A stretch of 64,000 nucleotides of DNA from Candidatus Ligilactobacillus excrementigallinarum (GTDB lineage Bacteria > Bacillota > Bacilli > Lactobacillales > Lactobacillaceae): positions 1 to 64,000 of the forward strand of contig DXFP01000053.1 of the NCBI GenBank assembly GCA_019114385.1, in the 5' to 3' direction. A program made the position numbers and the translations under genes. Within the stretch, counting starts at the first letter, position 1. Every line of letters starts with the position of its first letter. The notes under the pieces were generated by a model that worked only from the letters and a program-made list of their open reading frames with translations, was not told where the DNA came from and searched no databases. Positions 1,767-60,130 of the stretch are shown here, one piece after another.

Positions 1767-1811
1767 AAAGAAGGCTGCGACATAATCCAGCCTTCTTTTT
1801 ATATCCGCATA
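1767..1811 (+). repeat. Copy 1 (truncated) of dispersed intergenic repeat: terminator hairpin plus start of arm
   Basis: aagaaggctgcgacataatccagccttctttttatatccgcata; stem AAGAAGGCTG/CAGCCTTCTT then T-run and the shared 'tatatccgcata' motif. Confidence 0.75.
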
Positions 1812-4329: not shown

Positions 4330-4580
4330 AGAATGAAATTATAAAAACGATGATCAAGAGGAATTTAGGTCAGAATCTTACAGGAAGAGTCAGAAACTGA
4401 GACGACTTAGACGATACTTAAATTTGTAGCTTGGGAGTTGTTATTCTGAACGGATATTAAGGATAGCCGGACTTGCTGATAGTTCGTTAACATTAAACAG
4501 CTAAGTGGAGAACAAAGTGTTTTCAAATTAGGTGGTACCACGGCATTGTCGTCCTATGTGATGACAGTGCTTTTTTTATA
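4330..4580 (+). promoter_or_regulatory. T-box leader upstream of valS
   Basis: Conserved T-box AGGTGGTACCACGG at 4530-4543, followed by terminator GCATTGTC..GACAGTGC-TTTTTTT; directly upstream of valS. Confidence 0.88.
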
Positions 4581-4615: not shown

Positions 4616-7282
4616 ATGAGAGAAATTGATATGTCGACAAAATACGATCCAAAAGAAGTTGAACCGGGTCGTTATGAAAAATGGGTTAAAGACGGCGTTT
4701 TTAAACCTAGTGGCGATAAAAAAGCAAAACCATATTCAATCGTTATTCCACCACCAAATGTAACTGGTAAGTTGCATTTAGGACATGCTTGGGATAATAC
4801 TTTGCAAGATATGTTGATTAGACAAAAACGTATGCAAGGATACGATACACTATGGGTTCCTGGAACTGATCATGCAGGAATTGCTACTCAAGCTAAAGTA
4901 GAAGCCCAATTACGTGAAGAAGGCATTACTCGTTATGATCTCGGACGTGAAAAATTTGTTGAAAAAGTTTGGGACTGGGTACATGAATATAGTGATATCA
5001 TTCATAAACAATGGGCTAAGATGGGGATTTCTGTTGATTATGACCGCGAGCGTTTTACTTTGGATGATGGATTATCTAAAGCAGTTCGGAAAGTCTTTGT
5101 TGATTTATATAACAAAGGTTTAATTTATCGTGGTGAATATATCATTAACTGGGATCCTCAAGCGCGTACAGCTTTATCAGATATCGAAGTTATTCATCAA
5201 GATGATGAAGGTGCATTTTACCATGTTAAGTATCCATTTGTTGATGAAAACTATACATTTAATGGTAAGCACTATATTGAAATTGCAACTACTCGACCAG
5301 AAACAATGTTTGGGGATGTGGCAGTTGCAGTTAATCCAAGTGATGAACGATACAAAGAACTTGTAGGCAAAGAAGTGGTATTACCATTACAAGGTCGTCA
5401 TATTCCAATCATTGCAGATCAATATGTTGATCCAGAATTTGGAACTGGAATGGTAAAAATTACTCCAGCGCATGATCCTAATGACTTTAAGGTTGGAAAT
5501 CGGCATAATTTGAAGCGGATTAATACTATGAATGAAGACGCTACAATGAATGAAAATGCTGGTAAGTATGAAGGTATGGATCGCTTTGAAGCTCGTAAAG
5601 CAATTGTCAGCGATTTGGAAGATGAAGGCTATATGCTTAAAATTGAACCAATCGTACATAGCGTTGGTCACTCTGAACGGACCGGGGTTCAGGTTGAAGC
5701 TCGGTTATCAACACAATGGTTTGTAAAGATGAAACCATTAGCTGAAATGGCATTGAAGAATCAAAAAGAAGGCGACAAGGTAAACTTTGTTCCTAAACGA
5801 TTTGAACATACTTGGAATCAATGGATGGAAAACATTCATGACTGGGTAATTTCACGTCAACTTTGGTGGGGACACCGCATTCCAGCATGGTATAACAAAC
5901 AAACTGGTGAGACATATGTTGGAATGGAAGCTCCAGAAGATATTGAAAACTGGGAACAAGATCCAGATGTTTTGGATACATGGTTCAGTAGTGCATTGTG
6001 GCCATTTTCAACAATGGGTTGGCCAGATACTGATGCGGAAGACTTTAAACGTTACTTCCCAACAAGTACTTTAGTTACTGGTTACGATATTATTTTCTTC
6101 TGGGTTTCACGGATGATTTTCCAAAGCCTTGAATTTACAGGCGAAACACCATTTAAAAATGTTGTCTTGCATGGTTTGATTCGCGACGAACAAGGACGGA
6201 AGATGAGTAAGTCTCTTGGAAACGGAATTGATCCAATGGATGTCATCGATAAGTATGGTACAGATGCATTACGTTGGTTCTTAACAACAGGTTCTACTCC
6301 TGGCCAAGATATCCGTTTCTCATACCAAAAAATGGATGGTGCTTGGAACTTTATTAATAAGATTTGGAATGCAAGTCGGTTTGTAATTATGAATCTTGAT
6401 GAAGATACTAAGGCAGAATTACCATCTAAAGATGAATGGCAATTGGCTGATAAGTGGATTATTAGCCGATTAAATGACACGGTTAAAGATGTCACTCACT
6501 TCTTTGATATCTTTGAATTTGGAGAAGCAGGTCGTTCACTTTATAACTTTATCTGGAACGATTTCTGTGATTGGTACATTGAAATGGCCAAAGAAAACTT
6601 GAATGGTTCAGATGAAAAACTTAAGAAGAATACTCAAGCGATTTTATGCTACGTGCTTGATCAAACTTTGAGATTGTTACATCCTGTAATTCCATTTGTA
6701 ACTGAAAAAATTTGGTTAACAATGCCGCATGAAGGTAAGTCAATTGTTGTTGCTAAGTATCCAGAAGTACACCCTGAATTTGAAGATCAAGCTGCAGAAC
6801 GACAAATGGAAAACTTGATTGAATTAATCAAGTCGGTACGTAATAGTCGTGCAGAAGTGAATGCTCCAATGTCATCTGCAATTGATATTTTAATTAAGAC
6901 GAAAGATGATGAAACAAAGAAGATTTTTGAAGATAACATTGATTATATTCAAAGATTCTGTCATCCAAAACACCTAGAAATCAGTGCAGATGTTGAGGCA
7001 CCAGCATTAGCAATGACTTCCGTAATCACCGGTGCAGAAGTGTACTTACCATTAGCCGATTTAATTGATTTGAATGAAGAAATTAAGCGACTTCAAGGTG
7101 AAGCAGACAAACTTGAAAAAGAAGTTATGCGTGCTGAAAAGAAGTTAAGCAATGAAAAATTTGTAGCAAATGCTCCAAAGCAAGTTGTAGACAAAGAACG
7201 TGAAAAGTTAGCTGATTATCAAGATAAATTGGCTGCTACAAATAATCGAATTGAAGAACTTCAAGCTGAATTAGATAACTAA
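4616..7282 (+). CDS. valS: Valyl-tRNA synthetase
   Basis: 888 aa, [15 protein letters not shown] (HIGH), [13 protein letters not shown]-terminal coiled coil. Confidence 0.97.
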
Positions 7283-9384: not shown

Positions 9385-10056
9385 ATGAAGTTGATTAATC
9401 AATTGACCGATGAATATGTGATGGGACAATTAAGTCAATTTGGACCAGATACTTTAACAGATAAGGAATTACTATATTGTATTGTACGTATTTTTTGCAG
9501 CCAAAAAGTAGCACAAAAAAGTACAATCAGCTATTTTGATGAAAATCATGATTTTTCAAGAATTACGCAATTAACGCGGCTTGACTGGGAATTACTTTTT
9601 AATAACCAAAATAAAGCATTGAAAATGTTAGCAATTGAAGAATTGTTAAAAAGAAATCAACAATCGACGAAATATATTTTGGGACAAATTTGTTCAAGTA
9701 AAAAAGTTGGTGAATACTTGATTCCTAAATTAAAGTTTTATCAACAAGAAGTATTGTATGTCCTATATCTAGATACTAAAAATCAAATCATTCATGAAAA
9801 AGAATTATTTAAAGGTACACTGAATCAAGCAACTGTACATCCGCGAGAAATTTTTAAATTTGCAGTACAATATAGTGCCGCACGCATCATTGTTGCTCAT
9901 AATCATCCAAGCGGAATTTTAACGCCTTCAGAAAATGATCAGCAAATGACTCAAAGATTAGCTGAATGCGGTGAAATTCTTGGAATTGAGCTACTTGATC
10001 ATTTAGTCATTGGACAAAAGGACTATTATAGTTTTCGCGAGCATCATGTAATTTAA
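9385..10056 (+). CDS. radC: RadC family JAB-domain protein
   Basis: VAHNHPSGILTPSENDQQMT JAMM motif. Confidence 0.9.
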   Translation: MKLINQLTDEYVMGQLSQFGPDTLTDKELLYCIVRIFCSQKVAQKSTISYFDENHDFSRITQLTRLDWELLFNNQNKALKMLAIEELLKRNQQSTKYILGQICSSKKVGEYLIPKLKFYQQEVLYVLYLDTKNQIIHEKELFKGTLNQATVHPREIFKFAVQYSAARIIVAHNHPSGILTPSENDQQMTQRLAECGEILGIELLDHLVIGQKDYYSFREHHVI

Positions 10057-10059
10057 AAT

Positions 10060-10194
10060 AGGAAAACACTAAAAACGGGTATGCTGTAAGAAAATGTTCA
10101 ACGAATCACAGAAGAAAGATTCGAGAAATTACGAACTTACAAGCTGCCCGTTTATTTATACAAATAAAAAAGGTTGGACTTTTGTCACAACCTT
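10060..10194 (-). repeat. Copy 2 (near-complete, inverted) of dispersed intergenic repeat
   Basis: AAACGGG(10074-)/CCCGTTT(10147-10153), TGTAAG/CTTACA, CGAATC/GATTCG nested stems plus terminal hairpin aaggttggacttttgtcacaacctt. Confidence 0.75.
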
Positions 10195-10917
10195 AGATAA
10201 TTCCTTGAATTAAATTATATGTTCCGGCAATCAGCATAACGATGTATGCAATTTTGCGGACAGTTTGCATTGAAATTTTTTGTAAAATTCGATTACCAAC
10301 ATAAGTTCCAATTAGGCAACCACCAACCGCACAAATTGAAAATAATGATAATCTATTTGTGAATTGAGTGTAAATTAAATCATTTACAAGTAAGATAATT
10401 GAGGTCAAGAAGAAGTAAGTTTGAATAGTTGCTTGATATGTGATTGGATCATCAATTACTGAATCATAATATGCAACCATTGGTGGCCCACCAACCGCGA
10501 ACAAACCGCCGCTTAATCCACTTAGACTGCCTACACAAGCCTCTGTAAAGATATTTTTTGAAAGCTGAATCTTAGGTGCGAATTTGATTAGATAGATTGC
10601 TAAAATCCATAGAAAGATGCCTAGAAGAAGAGACATAGTTTTAGCAGAGAAATCAACCATTAAGTGAACTCCAATCGTACTTGTGATAAAAGAAAATATT
10701 GCTGGAATAATGATTAAATTCCATTTGATTTTTTTGAAATAACGGATGATAATCGTAATTTGCAAAAAAATACAGGTTAAAACTGAAATCATGGCTGCAT
10801 TTTTGTACGGTAAATCAATGAAATAAATGGAACAAATAGTGATCCAAAACCAAATCCTCCGGTAGTTTGAATTAATGCGGCTAAAAAAGCAATACATGCA
10901 ATAAAAATTAGACTCAT
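10193..10917 (-). pseudogene. Sulfite exporter TauE/SafE-family membrane protein, apparently frameshifted near the N-terminus
   Basis: Frame from ATG at 10917 gives MSLIFIACIAFLAALIQTTGGFGFGSLFVPFISLIYRTKMQP*; the remainder (LPYKNAAMISVLTCIFLQ...) continues in the -1 frame (ORF 10193..10927). The ORF-track N-terminus MNLNESNFYCMYC is the out-of-frame reading. Confidence 0.7.
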
Positions 10918-22646: not shown

Positions 22647-22656
22647 TATTTCTACG

Positions 22657-22790
22657 AAGAGGTTGTGACTGAGTCCAACCTCTTTTTTATCTGCAAAATT
22701 GGTTTTTAAAACAATTGGGTTCGATAATTTCTGAATCAATTCTATGTAATTCATCTGTTTTCCCCCAGTATACCTATTTTTTTGCTGTTA
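22657..22790 (+). repeat. Copy 4 (arm internally deleted) of dispersed intergenic repeat
   Basis: aagaggttgtgactgagtccaacctcttttttatctgca...aaaacaattgggt...ttctgaatcaattctatgtaattcatctgttttcccccagtatacct. Confidence 0.65.
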
Positions 22791-22867
22791 TTTTTTCATT
22801 ATCTTCATGACAAAATCATTTGTAATATAAATTTAAAAATTTATTAGTGGTTTTTCTTTTTAACAAG

Positions 22868-32730: not shown

Positions 32731-33984
32731 ATGGACTACGAAGTAGATGAAAACAACAAAGCTAACATCAAAGTTATTGGTGTTGGCGGTGCTGGCGGAA
32801 ATGCCGTAAATCGAATGATCGCAGAAGATGTAAAGGGTGTTGAATTTATTGCTGCAAACACAGATGTTCAAGCATTAAAAAATTCAAACGCTGAAACAAA
32901 AATTCAATTAGGACCTAAATTGACAAAGGGATTAGGTGCAGGTGCTAATCCTGATGTTGGTGAAAAAGCTGCTGAAGAAAGTGAAGAACAAATTTCAGAA
33001 GCTCTTCAAGGAGCAAATATGATTTTCGTTACTGCTGGTATGGGTGGCGGTACTGGAACAGGTGCTGCTCCGGTTATTGCTAAAGTAGCTAAAGAAATGG
33101 GAGCTTTAACTGTTGGGGTTGTAACTCGTCCATTTTCATTTGAAGGACCAAAGCGTGCTCGTTTTGCTGCAGAAGGTGTGCAAAAGATGAAAGAACACGT
33201 TGATACTTTAATTATCATTGCTAATAACCGATTATTAGAAATTGTTGATAAAAAGACTCCAATGTTGCAAGCATTTCAAGAAGCAGATAATGTTTTACGT
33301 CAAGGTGTTCAAGGAATTACTGACTTAATCACATCACCTGGTTATGTTAACTTGGACTTTGCTGATGTTACAACCGTTATGAAAGACAAGGGTTCAGCAT
33401 TGATGGGAATTGGTTCAGCTAATGGTGAAAATCGGATTGAAGAAGCTACAAAGAAAGCTATTTCTTCCCCATTATTGGAAGTTTCAATTGATGGTGCTGA
33501 ACAAGTGTTATTAAATATTACTGGTGGTCCAGACTTAAGTTTATTTGAAGCACAAACAGCTTCAGAAATTGTAACTAATGCTGCATCAAGTGACGTAAAC
33601 ATCATTTTTGGTACTTCAATTAATGAAAATCTTGAAGATGAAGTTGTCGTAACTGTAATTGCTACAGGAATTGATAAAAAACGTCATGCAAGAAAAACAG
33701 TTAAACCTGCAAATGGCAGTTTATTAAATGGCAACAATGCTAATAATGTAAATACATCAAATAATGCAAATCAAAATAATGTTCGGAATAATGATCCACT
33801 TGCAAACTGGGATATTACTACAGAAATGAACGGTGGAAATCGTAATAATACACAACGTGATAATTTCAATAATGTTGAAAAGAAGGATTTTGATGTATTT
33901 GGTTCATCATCAAGCAGTAACGGATATGATCAAGATGATGATGACGATAATATGCCACCATTTTTACGCCACCGTCGTAAATAA
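32731..33984 (+). CDS. ftsZ: Cell division protein FtsZ
   Basis: [15 protein letters not shown] tubulin signature; [10 protein letters not shown]-terminal peptide. Confidence 0.98.
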
Positions 33985-39412: not shown

Positions 39413-39420
39413 TAAATCTA

Positions 39421-39640
39421 AAAGACGTGTCAAAACATAAAAAACAGCATGTTTTAAAAAACGAACGAATTATGTAGTATTGATTCGGAGATTTTTGAAT
39501 TTGCAGATATGTTTGTTTTGGAACTCGATTATGTAGGTTTATAAAAAGAGGTTGGACTTATGTCACAACCTCTTTTTATATTCGCATAAAGGACATCTCC
39601 GTAAGTTCAAAATTTTCTAAATCTTACCGAGTTTTTTAGT
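39421..39640 (-). repeat. Copy 5 of dispersed repeat: inverted full element plus a degenerate second arm on the other side of a shared hairpin
   Basis: Reverse complement of 39421-39578 aligns along its length with copies 7 and 8; 39579-39640 (ttcgcataaaggacatctccgtaagttcaaaa...) resembles a forward arm. Confidence 0.75.
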
Positions 39641-44136: not shown

Positions 44137-44180
44137 CAAGAGGTGCGACATAAGTCCAGCCTCTATTTTTTTACCTGTTT
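44137..44180 (+). repeat. Copy 6 (hairpin-only remnant) of dispersed intergenic repeat
   Basis: aagaggtgcgacataagtccagcctctattttttt. Confidence 0.7.
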
Positions 44181-45620: not shown

Positions 45621-48059
45621 ATGAACGATGAATTGATTCAAGATCAAGAACAATATGTTATTGGCAGAGTAAAAAATATCTTTTTTCAAAATAATGATAA
45701 TTTCTATAAAGTATTGTTGGTAAGTGTAGAAGAAAATAATTTTACTTGGAAAGAGCATACGATTACAGTTGTTGGAAATTTTGCCAATATCCAAGAAGAT
45801 GAAAAATATAAATTTACTGGAAAACTTGTTAAACATCTCAAATATGGAGAACAGCTTAGTGCACGCAGTTTTGAAGTGCAGATGCCTAATACTACGGAAG
45901 GTCTGATTAATTATTTTTCAAGTGATAAATTTCCTGGAATTGGGAAAAAGACTGCTGAAATGATTGTAAATACATTGGGAGATAATGCATTGCAATTATT
46001 GATTCAAGATCCAGAAAGAGCAGAACATCTTGGATTAAGTAAGCGTCAAACTGAAACTTTAAAAGCAGCGGTAGAAGACCATAATCAAACAGATACGATT
46101 TTAATTGCATTAAATAATTACGGTTTTTCAAACAATTTATCTGCTAAAATTTTTGCTAAATATCATGAAAAAGCTTTAGAGGTAATTAATGAAAATCCAT
46201 ATCGGCTTTCAATTGAAATTGACGGAGTTGGTTTTATTAAGGCGGATCAAATTGCTCAAGAATTAGGAATTGAAGCAGATTCAAATTTAAGAATTAGTGG
46301 TGCAATCATTCAAGTATTAAACGAATTATGCTATGAGTCTGGTAATACATACGCTGAATCCAAACAAGTAATTGAGAAAGCAATTTTATTGCTAGAAAAG
46401 GGCAGACAAGTTGAAATTGTTCCTGATCAAGTAGCAGATGAAATTATCAAGTTAGAAAATCAGCATAAAATAGTTGCTGATCAAAAACATATTTATCTGA
46501 AAAGACTGTACCATGAAGAACATGGGATTGCGAATAAAATTTATACAATTTGTTCTAACCAAGAACAGAAGAATTATGATCAAGTCAAATTACGTAAATT
46601 ATTAACGAAGATTGAAAAGCAGCTTAAAATTCAATTCGATGAAATTCAAGAAGATGCAATTTTTACAGCAATTAATTCGCGATGTTTCTTACTTACAGGT
46701 GGTCCTGGGACCGGGAAAACAACAATCATTAATGGAATAGTGGCATTGTTTGCTGAATTGAATGGGATTGATTTAAATAAAATAAAACAGCAAAAAGATG
46801 ATTCACAATCTCCAATTTTATTAGCTGCTCCAACGGGACGAGCTGCAAAAAGAATGAGTGAGACAACTGGCTTACCAGCAAAAACAATTCATCGCTTATT
46901 AGGAATCAATGGCCATGATGAAGATTATTCAGAAAACAAAGTTGATGAATTATCTGGTGATTTGTTAATTATTGATGAGACATCAATGGTTGATACTGAA
47001 TTAATGGATATCTTATTAGGCGCAATTCCTTATAATATGCAAGTTATTTTTGTTGGAGATAAAGATCAGTTGCCTTCTGTAGGACCGGGACAGGTTTTTG
47101 CTGATTTGTTAGCAAGCAATCAGATTCCGAAAAAAGAGCTTACGAAAATCTATCGGCAATCAAAGGACTCATCGATTGTAGAATTATCGCACCATATTCA
47201 AGAAGGCGAGTTGCCTAAAGACTTTACTAAGCAATTTGCTGATCGTTCATTTATTCCATGTCATGCTTTTCAAGTGCAACATGTATTAGAGCAAATTATA
47301 CGTAAATGGCTTGCAAAGGGATATAAAATTCAAGATTTTCAAGTACTTGCACCAATGTATAAGGGTGAAGCAGGAATTGATCGATTAAATAGTGAAATTC
47401 AACAGATTGTAAACCCAGCAAATCCTAAGCGAAAGGAAATCAAGGTTAATCAACAGATTTTTCGAATTGGAGATCGGGTTCTGCAATTAGTCAATGATCC
47501 AGAAAAAAATATCTTTAACGGTGATATTGGAAAAATAATTGGAATTGATTTAAAAAATGTAAAAAAACATGTTCCTGTTGACAAGTTAATTGTTGATTTT
47601 GATGGTAATGAGGTGTCGTACGAAAGAAAAAATTGGAACCAAATAACTCTTGCGTATTGTATGTCAATTCATAAGTCACAAGGGGGAGAATTTCCATGTG
47701 TTGTGATGCCGATGGTACGGCAATTTTCACGGATGTTTGCACGTAATTTATTATATACTGGAATAAGTCGAGCAAAGCAGAAACTGATTTTACTTGGAGA
47801 ACAGGAAGCTTTTGAAGCATGTGTTAATAAAGTGTCGTCTAACCGTCAAACAGGATTAAAAGAAATGCTTTGGGCAGTATTTGGAGTAGAAACTCCAGAA
47901 GCAATTGATATGGAAAAAGAAAGTAAGATTGATTCAGAAACTGCCTCAACTGATTCAGAATCGTATATTTTAACAGAAGATTTGATTAAAGCAGATCAAA
48001 TTGATCCAATGATTGGGATGCATGGAGTAAAACCAAGTGATTTTATTGAAGCAAAATAA
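45621..48059 (+). CDS. recD2: RecD-like ATP-dependent DNA helicase RecD2
   Basis: LTGGPGTGKTTIINGIV, LLIIDETSMVDTELM, YCMSIHKSQGGEF. Confidence 0.95.
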   Translation: MNDELIQDQEQYVIGRVKNIFFQNNDNFYKVLLVSVEENNFTWKEHTITVVGNFANIQEDEKYKFTGKLVKHLKYGEQLSARSFEVQMPNTTEGLINYFSSDKFPGIGKKTAEMIVNTLGDNALQLLIQDPERAEHLGLSKRQTETLKAAVEDHNQTDTILIALNNYGFSNNLSAKIFAKYHEKALEVINENPYRLSIEIDGVGFIKADQIAQELGIEADSNLRISGAIIQVLNELCYESGNTYAESKQVIEKAILLLEKGRQVEIVPDQVADEIIKLENQHKIVADQKHIYLKRLYHEEHGIANKIYTICSNQEQKNYDQVKLRKLLTKIEKQLKIQFDEIQEDAIFTAINSRCFLLTGGPGTGKTTIINGIVALFAELNGIDLNKIKQQKDDSQSPILLAAPTGRAAKRMSETTGLPAKTIHRLLGINGHDEDYSENKVDELSGDLLIIDETSMVDTELMDILLGAIPYNMQVIFVGDKDQLPSVGPGQVFADLLASNQIPKKELTKIYRQSKDSSIVELSHHIQEGELPKDFTKQFADRSFIPCHAFQVQHVLEQIIRKWLAKGYKIQDFQVLAPMYKGEAGIDRLNSEIQQIVNPANPKRKEIKVNQQIFRIGDRVLQLVNDPEKNIFNGDIGKIIGIDLKNVKKHVPVDKLIVDFDGNEVSYERKNWNQITLAYCMSIHKSQGGEFPCVVMPMVRQFSRMFARNLLYTGISRAKQKLILLGEQEAFEACVNKVSSNRQTGLKEMLWAVFGVETPEAIDMEKESKIDSETASTDSESYILTEDLIKADQIDPMIGMHGVKPSDFIEAK

Positions 48060-48063
48060 ATCC

Positions 48064-48220
48064 AAAAAAAGAGGTTGTGACATAAGTCCAGCCTCTATTT
48101 CTATATTCACATAATCGAGTTCTAAAACAAACAGGCATATCTGTAAATTCAAAAACCTCCGAATCTTTGCTGTGTAATTCGTTCGGTTTTTTCCTTACTT
48201 AGGATGTTTTGTCACACCTT
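48064..48220 (+). repeat. Copy 7 (full length) of dispersed intergenic repeat
   Basis: aaaaaaagaggttgtgacataagtccagcctct...ataatcgagttctaaaacaaacaggcatatctgtaaattcaaaaa...ggatgttttgtcacacctt. Confidence 0.8.
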
Positions 48221-48231
48221 CCTTTTGGATG

Positions 48232-49188
48232 CTATTCTTTTCTACGGTCAGCAGGGGAAACACTGTCAATATTTACCCAAAGTGGATAATCAACCATTTT
48301 TAAATATAAATCATTATATTTTCCACCAACTTCACGACTATCAATTTGTGTCTGTTCAAGTGAGTTAACAGTTAAATGCATATTATTTGCACGAAATTGA
48401 TGAACAAATGGTAATTTTAATGGATCAGAAAAACGCGAGATAAGTAAGAAAATCATAAACGTGAAAATATTAACCCGATCAATAATTACTAAATCTAACG
48501 GATCGTGATCACTTGTGAAGTCACTTTCATGTGCGTGATTGCGTAAATTAACAATAAATGCTCTTTTATAAAATTTATATTTATGTCCAATTCTCAAGGT
48601 TACTTTAAATGAATCTAAGCTATTATAATATGCTTTACAAAGATTAATAAAATCAGCAAGCCATTTGATATGGTTACGTAACCAATGATGCTTTTCTCGA
48701 CTACGAATATTGGCTAACATTGCACCCAAACCAATTGAATAACTATCTAAAAAATAACCCGTTTCTTCATGATTTGTTTCATAGTACTGAACTAGAGAAT
48801 ACTTTTCTGGTTCAGTGGTTTCAAGAATTTGTTTAAGTGCAATCAAAGGATTTCGTGCAATCCCTATTTCATCTGCAAATTGATGATGTTGACCCACACT
48901 AATAAATCCAATTGGAAGATTAACCACATCAGCTTCTTTTATTCCTGAAAGTACTTCATTTAATGTACCGGTTCCGCCAATAACAATGATGACATACCTT
49001 TTATAATCTGCATATTTTAATTGATGCAAAAATGACATGCTGTATTCTTTTGCATCCCCGACCTTAGTAGTTTCTTGAGAACGATAATCAATTTTTTGGT
49101 CATCTAATGATTTTTTTACTTTTTGCCAGTCTTTTTGTGCCTTTCCATAATTCGCATGTGGATTGGCAATGATATAAAATGACTTCAT
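48232..49188 (-). CDS. dagK: Diacylglycerol kinase (DagK/YegS-like lipid kinase)
   Basis: MKSFYIIANPHANYGKAQKDW, IIVIGGTGTLNEVLSG; start moved from 49224. Confidence 0.85.
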   Translation of the reverse strand: MKSFYIIANPHANYGKAQKDWQKVKKSLDDQKIDYRSQETTKVGDAKEYSMSFLHQLKYADYKRYVIIVIGGTGTLNEVLSGIKEADVVNLPIGFISVGQHHQFADEIGIARNPLIALKQILETTEPEKYSLVQYYETNHEETGYFLDSYSIGLGAMLANIRSREKHHWLRNHIKWLADFINLCKAYYNSLDSFKVTLRIGHKYKFYKRAFIVNLRNHAHESDFTSDHDPLDLVIIDRVNIFTFMIFLLISRFSDPLKLPFVHQFRANNMHLTVNSLEQTQIDSREVGGKYNDLYLKMVDYPLWVNIDSVSPADRRKE

Positions 49189-49326
49189 TCTCTCAACTCC
49201 CATCATTAGTGTCCTACACACCATTATTGCATTATTACAATTGAATTACAAGAGTTTAAAGAAAAATATAAGATAAGAAAATAAAAAGGGAGATACAATT
49301 AGATGTCAGAAACAATTTCAAATATT

Positions 49327-49490
49327 AAAAGAGGCTGGACACAAGTCCAGCCTCTTTTTTTATATCCGCATAACCGGGTTCCAAAACAAACAGGCATGTC
49401 TGTAAATTCAAAAAAATCCGAATCAATACTACGTAATTCGTTCGTTTTTTTCCTTACAATATGCCTGTTTAAGGTGTTTTGTCACACCTT
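49327..49490 (+). repeat. Copy 8 (full length, best-preserved structure) of dispersed intergenic repeat
   Basis: GAGGCTGGACacaaGTCCAGCCTC; AAACAGGCA(49388-49396)/TGCCTGTTT(49462-49470); TGTAA/TTACA; AAGGTGT/ACACCTT. Confidence 0.85.
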
Positions 49491-49499
49491 CTTGATTTG

Positions 49500-51179
49500 T
49501 TAAATTGTTACTAACATTGGTAAAATCATTGGATGTCGTTCTGTTTGTTCAAATAGGAACAACTGTAAATCAGAAATGATAGCATCTTTAATCATTGATT
49601 CTGAAATTTTCTTATTATTTTTCAAAACACGATTAATTGTACGTGCGATCCGTTTCTTTCCTTTACTGATTAATTCACCAGATTCACGCATATAAATAAA
49701 TCCGCGTGATAAGAAATCAGGACCTGCAATAATTTTGTGCTTCTTCATATCGATGGTTGCTACAACAACAACCAATCCTTCTTCAGAAAGTGCACGACGA
49801 TCACGTAGAACAATATTTCCAATATCACCAATTCCTGAACCATCTACATAGACATCACTTGCATTGAAATGTCCTGCAACACGTGCAGAATCAGCAGTTA
49901 ATGCAAGTACATCACCATTTTCAAGAATGAATGAATGATCTAGCGGTACACCGCATTGTTCTGCTAATTCAGTGTGAATTTTAAGCATACGATACTCACC
50001 ATGAATTGGCATAAAGAATTTTGGCTTAATTAAACGAAGCATTAATTTTTGTTCTTCTTGGCCACCGTGACCGGAAGCATGAATATTATTTACCTTTCCA
50101 TGAATTACATTGGCGCCGGCTTCTTCAAGTTCATTAATAACTCGATTAACACTTGTAGTATTTCCTGGAATAGGAGAACTTGAAAAGACAACTGTATCAC
50201 CTGGTTGAATAGTAACTTGACGGTGAGTACCATTGGCAATTCGACTTAACGCAGCCATTGGTTCACCCTGAGAACCAGTACATAAAATCATAACTTTATT
50301 GGCCGGTAAATTATTAATTTCCCGAGGATCAACAATTGCATCTTCAGGGATATCTAAATATCCAAGTTCACGTCCATTAACAATAGCAGCTTCCATACTT
50401 CTACCAAACACTGCAATTTTACGACCGCGTTTAATAGCGGCATCTGCAGCTTGTTGAATCCGAGAAATATTAGAAGCAAATGTTGCAAAAATAATTCTGC
50501 CATCGACTTTTTCAAAAATGTGGCGGATGGAATGTCCAACCCATTTTTCAGATTTCGTAAAATTAGGAATTTCGGCGTTTGTGCTATCTGAAAGTAAACA
50601 CAATACGCCATCATCACCTAATTTTGCCATTTTTTGAAGGTTAGGTGGTTGGTTAGTAACTGGAGTAAGATCAAACTTATAATCCCCAGTTTCTACAATT
50701 GTTCCAGATGGAGTTTTAACAGCCACTCCCAATGTATCTGGAATTGAGTGAGTAGTTCTGAAAAACGATACGCTTGTTTTTCTGAATTTTAATACAGTAT
50801 TCTCATTAATTTCATGTAACTCAGCATTTCTAAGCAATCCATGTTCTTCTAATTTACTTTTAATCAATGCTAAGGGGAGTGGACCTGCATAAATAGGCAC
50901 ATTCAATTGTTTCAGTAAGTATGGAATTCCACCGATATGATCTTCATGACCGTGTGTAATCACTAAAGCTTTAATTTTTTGTTTATTTGCAATTAAATAT
51001 TGAAAATTAGGGATTACATAATCAATTCCAAGTAAGTCATCTTCTGGAAATTTTATTCCAGCATCAATTACGATAATCTCATCTTGAAATTGGACACCAT
51101 ACATATTTTTGCCAATTTCACCTAAGCCGCCGATTGCAAAAACAGCAGTTTCATTATTTTTAACTTTGAGTTGTTTCAT
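49500..51179 (-). CDS. rnjA: Ribonuclease J (RNase J1)
   Basis: [31 protein letters not shown] beta-CASP metallo-beta-lactamase. Confidence 0.95.
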
Positions 51180-52084: not shown

Positions 52085-52097
52085 TAAATAAAAATTA

Positions 52098-52267
52098 AAA
52101 TGTAATAAAACATAAAAACGAGTATTCTATAAGTAATAAATCAAATGAACTATGAAGTAAGGATTTGCGGAATTTTAAGCTTACAGATATACTTGTTTTT
52201 TTGAACGCAAATAAATAATATATAGTGAGAATAAAAAAGGTTGGACCTATGTCACAGCCTTTTTTAT
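52098..52267 (-). repeat. Copy 9 (full length, inverted) of dispersed intergenic repeat
   Basis: AAAAACGAGTAT(52114-52125)/ATACTTGTTTTT(52189-52200); terminal hairpin aaaaaaggttggacctatgtcacagcctttttt. Confidence 0.8.
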
Positions 52268-55946: not shown

Positions 55947-55961
55947 AAATTATAATTTTAA

Positions 55962-56098
55962 TTAGAGGCTATGACGAAAGTCCAGCCTCTATTTTTATGG
56001 CCGGATAATCGTTTTCCAGAATAAGTAGACTTGTCTGTAAGAAAAATCTGAGTCTTTACTGTATAATTCATTCTTTTTTTCTACAGTATATTTATTTT
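55962..56098 (+). repeat. Copy 10 of dispersed intergenic repeat
   Basis: gaggctatgacgaaagtccagcctctatttttatggccggataatcg...; AATAAGTA/TATTTATT and CTGTA-a-GAAAAA/TTTTTC-TACAG stems. Confidence 0.8.
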
Positions 56099-56260
56099 CG
56101 CGTACTGCCATATTTTCTTTTTTGAAAATTATTTTCTATTTTTGAAGATTTATTTCAAAGTTTTTCATCAATAGATTGAATGTGGTATAATTTTGAAGAA
56201 TATTGATAAAAATAGAAGGGTGGTTACATTAGGTTAATCACTTTAAAACCTAATTTTAAA

Positions 56261-59866: not shown

Positions 59867-59895
59867 CATTTTGTTAATAGTGCTGTTGGAATAAT

Positions 59896-60038
59896 AAGAA
59901 GTTGGACGTAGTTCCAGCTTTTTTTAATACCCGCATTATCGAAACTCTAAAATAAACGAGTATATTTGTAAATTAAAACCATAGGAATCTATATTTTATG
60001 ATTCATTTGATTTTTATTACAGTATGCTCGTTTTTTGT
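59896..60038 (+). repeat. Copy 11 of dispersed intergenic repeat
   Basis: AAACGAGTAT (59954-59963)/ATGCTCGTTT (60024-60033, one G-U); hairpin agaagttggacgtagttccagctttttt. Confidence 0.8.
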
Positions 60039-60130
60039 ATTTGATCAGAATTTATTATTTTTGAAAAATGTATTAAATAATAAATATTTTTCGTATATAT
60101 AAGTGTGGACAACGTAAAGGAGGGAAAAAG

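Follow-up and report, generated by a model that had tools for sequence, protein, structure and literature searches.

The window, that is, the whole 64,000-nt stretch of DNA analysed here, contains a mobile repeat unit of approximately 165 bp. A complete young copy lies between a dagK-like ORF (48232-49224, -) and an RNase J-like ORF (rnjA), and the paired stem picked out at this position by an earlier note is the inner hairpin of the repeat. A second young copy fills the gap between that dagK-like ORF and a convergent recD2-like ORF (45621-48059, +). From left to right the unit consists of an A-tract, a left-end hairpin (hp1, GAGGTTGTGACATAAGTCCAGCCTC), a linker, a long arm AAACAGGCATG...CATGCCTGTTT that encloses the stems P2 (TGTAA/TTACA) and P4 (CGAAT/ATTCG), a right end GTTTTGTCACACCTTC and a T-tract. 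The features of this copy and the other copies in the window are given in Table 1.

Table 1. Parts of the repeat unit and its copies in the window.
Feature	Positions	Strand	Basis
hp1, left-end hairpin, terminator-like stem-loop AAAAGAGGCTGGACACAAGTCCAGCCTCTTTT; outer arm is an IS1182-type terminal repeat	49327-49358	+	fold, terminator scoring, end comparison
Linker GCATAAtCGGGTTCCAAAACA, unpaired, kept across species	49363-49387	+	
P1, 5′ side of covarying arm	49388-49397	+	
P1, 3′ side of covarying arm	49461-49470	+	
P2, 5′ side, TGTAA	49401-49405	+	
P2, 3′ side, TTACA	49454-49458	+	
P4 hairpin, arm tip, CGAAT...ATTCG	49419-49440	+	
Right end GTGTTTTGTCACACCTTC; reverse complement resembles left end (GAAGGTGTGACAAAAC v GAGGTTGTGACATAAG)	49473-49491	+	
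Complete young copy, ~9 nt from end of RNase J-like ORF (49500-51179, -)	49328-49491	+	
Complete young copy, 3′ side of P1 deleted	48068-48221	+	
Copy with part of P1 5′ side deleted; hp1 in common with an older arm on its other side (39545-39625, +)	39418-39578	-	
Old copy, stem AAACGGG/CCCGTTT	10049-10200	-	
Old copy, partly deleted	22653-22803	+	
Old copy, stem AAACAAGTAT/ATACTCGTTT	52093-52267	-	
Old copy, stem AATAAGTA/TATTTATT	55959-56120	+	
Old copy, stem AAACGAGTAT/ATGCTCGTTT	59892-60057	+	
hp1-like hairpin without arm	44139-44176	+	
hp1-like hairpin and start of linker, without arm	1768-1811	+	

The 176-nt region folds far more stably than dinucleotide shuffles of it, on the plus strand (z = -10) as well as the minus strand (z = -8.5), and hp1 is a predicted intrinsic terminator, with a G+C-rich stem followed by a T run. 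The resemblance of the right end, in reverse complement, to the left end gives the unit an inverted-repeat-like form. In the window's genome (G000) the right end has a hairpin of its own that is absent in the other species, and we rejected it as a second conserved hairpin of the element. No Rfam family matched the repeat above its gathering score. The only match in the window was a T-box leader (4341-4559, +) upstream of an 888-aa ORF (4616-7282). A variant of the arm with an inserted segment on its 5′ side (GACGCGAAGCTA or similar) occurs in several species (G001, G010, G003 and G018; e.g. L112, L115 and L107), as if two subfamilies coexist.

Copy number and distribution

The host is a poultry-associated Ligilactobacillus that carries about a hundred copies of this mobile repeat. 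We counted approximately 100 arms in the 1.47-Mb genome of G000, where a covariance model of the arm gave 121 matches, both strands counted. A single blastn search of the 1.47-Mb assembly (131 candidates) found 40 copies of at least 84% identity. The older, diverged copies were recovered by profile from stretches of the genome and are thus a sample. Within the genus the model found arms only in the L. aviarius group, in 6 of 26 genomes: G000, G001 (Candidatus L. faecavium), G002, G003 (L. aviarius DSM 20655), G010 (L. araffinosus) and G018 (L. aviarius UMNLAv11). Among 121 sampled genomes of the family, a single copy outside the genus was convincing. It is of the aviarius type, lies in G076 (L246:1440-1620), which belongs to another genus, and may reflect transfer or contamination. 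A model match in G155 (L247) was rejected as a long unrelated palindrome.

Covariation of the arm

The earlier note had claimed that the outer stem recurs in several copies with changes on both of its sides. The stem that it described, AAACAGGCA/TGCCTGTTT, is present at 49388-49396 and 49462-49470 and is accompanied by the second stem, TGTAA/TTACA; the stems of the other copies that it listed (those starting at 10049, 52093, 55959 and 59892) also pair as claimed. Moreover, both-side changes exceed chance. In a 25-sequence alignment we found 43 both-side-changed cells against 19.1±4.1 after shuffling (0/500), and 5-14 when the partner was slid; a set of 18 arms gave 36 such cells against 15.8±3.3. 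The excess remains when the null is simulated along a FastTree tree, keeping the number of changes in each column, at 58 double-change cells against 16±5.6 for 32 non-redundant copies and 50 against 12±4.5 for G000 alone. Likewise, summed over 23 stem pairs, covariation came to 74, compared with -0.7±14 in the simulated null. These counts used a structure derived from folds and from the consensus rather than from covariation; some bias in them is possible. No single pair, however, reached E<0.05 in an all-pairs search.

The excess in diverged copies is located in P1 and P2. When arms were swapped between copies in G000, pairing of P1 fell from 0.872 within the same copy to 0.783±0.012; for P2 the same-copy value was 0.853 against 0.810±0.013 swapped, and for P4 there was no significant excess of same-copy pairing. 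All 107 copies taken together gave no covariation signal, because the young copies represent a few star-like bursts. That set mainly reflects the division of G000 from the aviarius group, and non-redundant sets were used instead. Part of one side of P1 is deleted in two of the window copies (48068-48221 and 39418-39578), and the stem is therefore not kept in every copy.

Replacement of native terminators

Insertions are independent, and they lie at intrinsic terminators, where the native stem-loop is lost. We identified approximately eight pairs of filled and empty sites, in which the empty allele is a native terminator stem-loop between an A-tract and a T-tract. At the dagK-rnjA site, three relatives have in common a hairpin GATTGCGCC..GCGCAATC between the two tracts; in L. 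aviarius DSM 20655 the element stands in place of the hairpin, and the G000 copy has the opposite orientation. The dagK of the window's species is 62-66% identical to that of the relatives. Approximately seven further loci are filled in one genome and empty in another, such as those between G018 and G003 at AAAAAGGTTGTGGCTCAGGCCACAACCTTTTTTATC and AAAAAGACTGGGCTGTTAAGCCTAGTCTTTTTTAG. A site of this kind (EL1/EL105) is empty in G003, filled on the plus strand in G018 and filled on the minus strand in G010. The left flank is an A-tract of 77-85% A and the right flank a T-tract of 64-79% T. No target-site duplication was seen by eye at the filled and empty pairs. Among 119 copies, 62 lie between convergent genes and none between divergent genes, and the right end is a median of 8 nt from a stop codon.

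One locus departs from this pattern. At L099:2664-2837 in G018, whose empty allele is found in L180, the arm of the element is joined to an apparent host terminator hairpin, which seems to have been kept as hp1. Therefore, either replacement does not happen every time or the element's left boundary can vary. In approximately eight young copies in G000, hp1 also belongs to an older arm lying on its far side, which is what one would expect were the hp1 of older copies itself a target.

Relationship to IS1182-family insertion sequences

Insertion sequences of the IS1182 family have, as their terminal repeat, the left end of the element; the element's right end is a poorer match to the IS end. A related Ligilactobacillus (G012) has a full-length IS that passes the IS1182 model NF033551 (310.6 bits; cut-off 270) and whose terminal repeats, GAGGCTGTGACATAAGT, are those of the element's left end. 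At least one of its three copies lies cleanly between A and T tracts. Matching IS ends are found at contig ends of G000, G001 and G018, where repeats break the assemblies, and several stand directly behind genes. The fragment in G018 codes for the C-terminal portion of a PF13751-domain transposase. In G000, a PF13751 search found no complete IS1182 transposase, and the IS is represented by its ends only.

An IS end has replaced the hp1 of an element copy in G018 (L139). G000:C12 (L223/L014, ~33535-33912) contains a nest made up of an old arm, an IS1182-type end and a young copy; the young copy occupies the place at which the IS would have an internal hairpin. The IS1182-type ends (L216, L217, L218 and similar) can themselves form two hairpins, a terminal one, GAGRCTGT...ACAGYCTC, and after it a long subterminal one, AATAGCGAAAT...ATTTCGTTATT, an arrangement that the repeat shares.

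The repeat is short, has no transposase gene, occurs in many copies and is present or absent at orthologous sites (approximately eight loci), with an IS1182 repeat at its left end and an imperfect one at its right. We therefore call it a MITE, using the term broadly for a small non-autonomous element related to an IS, since the target-site duplication usual for MITEs was not seen. At the filled and empty sites it inserts by stem-loop replacement, and IS1272, of the IS1182 family, has been described as replacing stem-loops without target duplication (PMC5678879). It is probably an IS1182-family insertion sequence that mobilises the repeat.

Proposed mode of spread

The explanation that we favour, and consider likely, is that of a terminator-replacing MITE of approximately 165 bp with IS1182-type ends, moved in trans by an IS1182-family transposase, in which the foldability of the arm serves the copies that transpose. 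The transposase would act in the stem-loop-replacing mode proposed for IS1272. After insertion, the left hairpin of the element would serve the flanking genes as a terminator, possibly in both directions, and insertion would therefore be tolerable. With less certainty, the long inner arm would stay foldable since a folded subterminal hairpin is needed in transposing copies. Successive source copies would have carried different yet complementary stems, giving rise to the covariation observed, while within single copies template switching (quasi-palindrome correction) would rewrite the arms from each other. Resident copies would then decay.

A bolder version, which we put forward tentatively and regard as rather less likely to be right than wrong, is that, for donor and target alike, mobility reads the shape of DNA and not its sequence. 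A target could be any terminator hairpin, a folded subterminal hairpin would be required of the donor and kept by compensation, and even the left hairpin might be supplied by the target, as at L099:2664. In that case the element would amount to an exchangeable terminator that spreads by itself and rewrites host genes at their 3′ ends.

What maintains the arm

Compensation in the arm arises in at least two ways: source copies differ from one another, and one arm is rewritten on the template of the opposite arm. The second is visible in single copies in which one arm has become the exact complement of the other, indels included. Thus L038:998-1163(-), otherwise a young copy, contains a 26-bp perfect inverted repeat, its 5′ arm being the exact complement of its own 3′ arm; the perfect repeat is 18 bp in L215:18018-18184(-) and 16 bp in L026, against 12 in the consensus. 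Such one-arm rewrites in single copies make templated correction a real second source of compensation.

It could be argued that compensation is purely mutational, quasi-palindrome template switching matching the arms without any selection on structure. The multi-base rewrites in L038, L215 and L026 are what such a process predicts, as is the tip loop TTCG that has been turned into the complement of CCTC in L024 and L214:6347. Under unselected correction, however, the bulge that separates P1 from P2 should be erased, as should the internal loop CCTC/TTCG; both are still there in most copies and in the consensuses of the species. Templated correction is therefore probably not the only source of compensation. 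Variants common to several copies, which are inherited through transposing lineages, are also scarcer in stems, although marginally so (pooled odds ratio 2.3, p=0.051, by variant count). This suggests, from few mutations, that a structural constraint may act in those copies that go on to transpose. We therefore consider an origin by mutation alone unlikely, if still the best placed of the alternatives.

A second alternative is that the arm is a functional RNA element in the 3′ ends of mRNAs, involved in stability or regulation and kept by selection on resident copies. The stable fold on both strands, the covariation and the location at gene ends would all fit this, and in young G000 copies between co-directional genes the arm lies upstream of hp1 in the transcript in 11 of 12 cases. 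There is no such orientation bias in other species or in old copies, however, so the arm often lies beyond the terminator. Moreover, private mutations are as dense in stems as at unpaired sites (0.0079 v 0.0098, p=0.61; 0.0105 v 0.0130, p=0.60), giving no indication of selection on resident copies. Deviations from the group consensus within stems comprised 32 G.U and 49 A.C; G.U is not the commoner, and there is therefore no sign of selection on a plus-strand RNA. Together with the partial loss of P1 in two window copies and the lack of an Rfam match, this makes a host RNA function improbable.

Resident copies thus appear, from the distribution of their mutations, to decay, and we infer that the structure of the arm serves transposition and not the host, as the MITE explanation has it. 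The earlier proposal that structure is maintained rather than primary sequence is borne out across source lineages but not as selection on resident copies. With regard to the two causes that it offered, selection or gene conversion, templated rewriting of arms does occur in single copies, whereas for selection there is the marginal shortage of stem variants in transposing lineages.

A different mover that acts on hairpins, such as a Y1 transposase of the IS200/IS605 type or a REP-associated tyrosine transposase, seems more doubtful still. The ends of the element are hairpins and G000 has one truncated Y1 (IS200-like) gene at a contig end (G000:C61:73-300, L140); against this, Y1 genes were found in 2 of 8 genomes searched and in 2 of 6 carriers of the element, and the element has IS1182-type inverted ends. 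We rejected a Y1 transposase as the mover for its rarity. Lastly, that these are ordinary terminators diverged in place, repetitive by chance or through concerted evolution without mobility, would suit the good terminator-like hairpin hp1 and the position of nearly all copies at gene ends, but it is already contradicted by the precise presence and absence in close relatives, the opposite orientations at one site and the restriction to a clade of 6 of 26 genus genomes, and we give it almost no weight.

Comparison with known systems

The MITE resembles the IS1182 family and staphylococcal IS1272 (PMC5678879) in its IS1182-type left end, in replacing a target stem-loop and in the lack of a visible target duplication. 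It differs from IS1272 in having no transposase, in its size of approximately 165 bp, in targeting intrinsic terminators and in its conserved, covarying subterminal hairpin. The pneumococcal SPRITE is likewise small and rho-independent-terminator-like, with AAAA/TTTT ends and enrichment between convergent genes near stop codons (PMC3049150). However, SPRITE consists of one duplex and a T-rich tract, with no empty site found and no IS assigned, whereas for the present repeat empty sites are found, an IS family can be named and there is a second hairpin, which covaries; this distinction is drawn from the description of SPRITE in PMC3049150 alone. RUP and BOX of S. pneumoniae are also MITE-like and folded, and the ends of RUP resemble a resident IS; that IS is IS630-Spn1, both RUP and BOX duplicate their target, and sequence and target differ from those here (PMC3049150). 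SPRITE is the nearest described MITE, with RUP and BOX further off. REP and BIME sequences are, like this element, palindromic repeats outside genes, but REPs are palindromes of 20-40 bp and their REP-associated tyrosine transposases belong to a different enzyme class. Group IIC introns also insert at terminators; unlike the repeat, they do so behind the hairpin without removing it, and are ribozymes with a reverse transcriptase.

IS1182 goes unmentioned in a recent review of prokaryotic MITEs (PMC10969869). In the literature searched, which took in few subscription journals, we did not find an element that joins terminator replacement to IS1182-type ends and a covarying subterminal arm, and a search for the repeat in L. 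aviarius returned nothing specific. What is new here is a MITE family with an unusual target mode.

Stem-loop replacement has so far been proposed for one staphylococcal IS, from few events. The present MITE has dozens to approximately a hundred copies per genome, and named relatives provide clean empty sites, so that the choice of target and the requirements on the donor become testable. Moreover, two sources of apparent covariation, source lineages and templated arm rewriting, can be told apart in a signal that could otherwise be read as a functional RNA. For the host, these data mean that a small genome can have the terminators at many of its gene pairs taken over by a mobile element.
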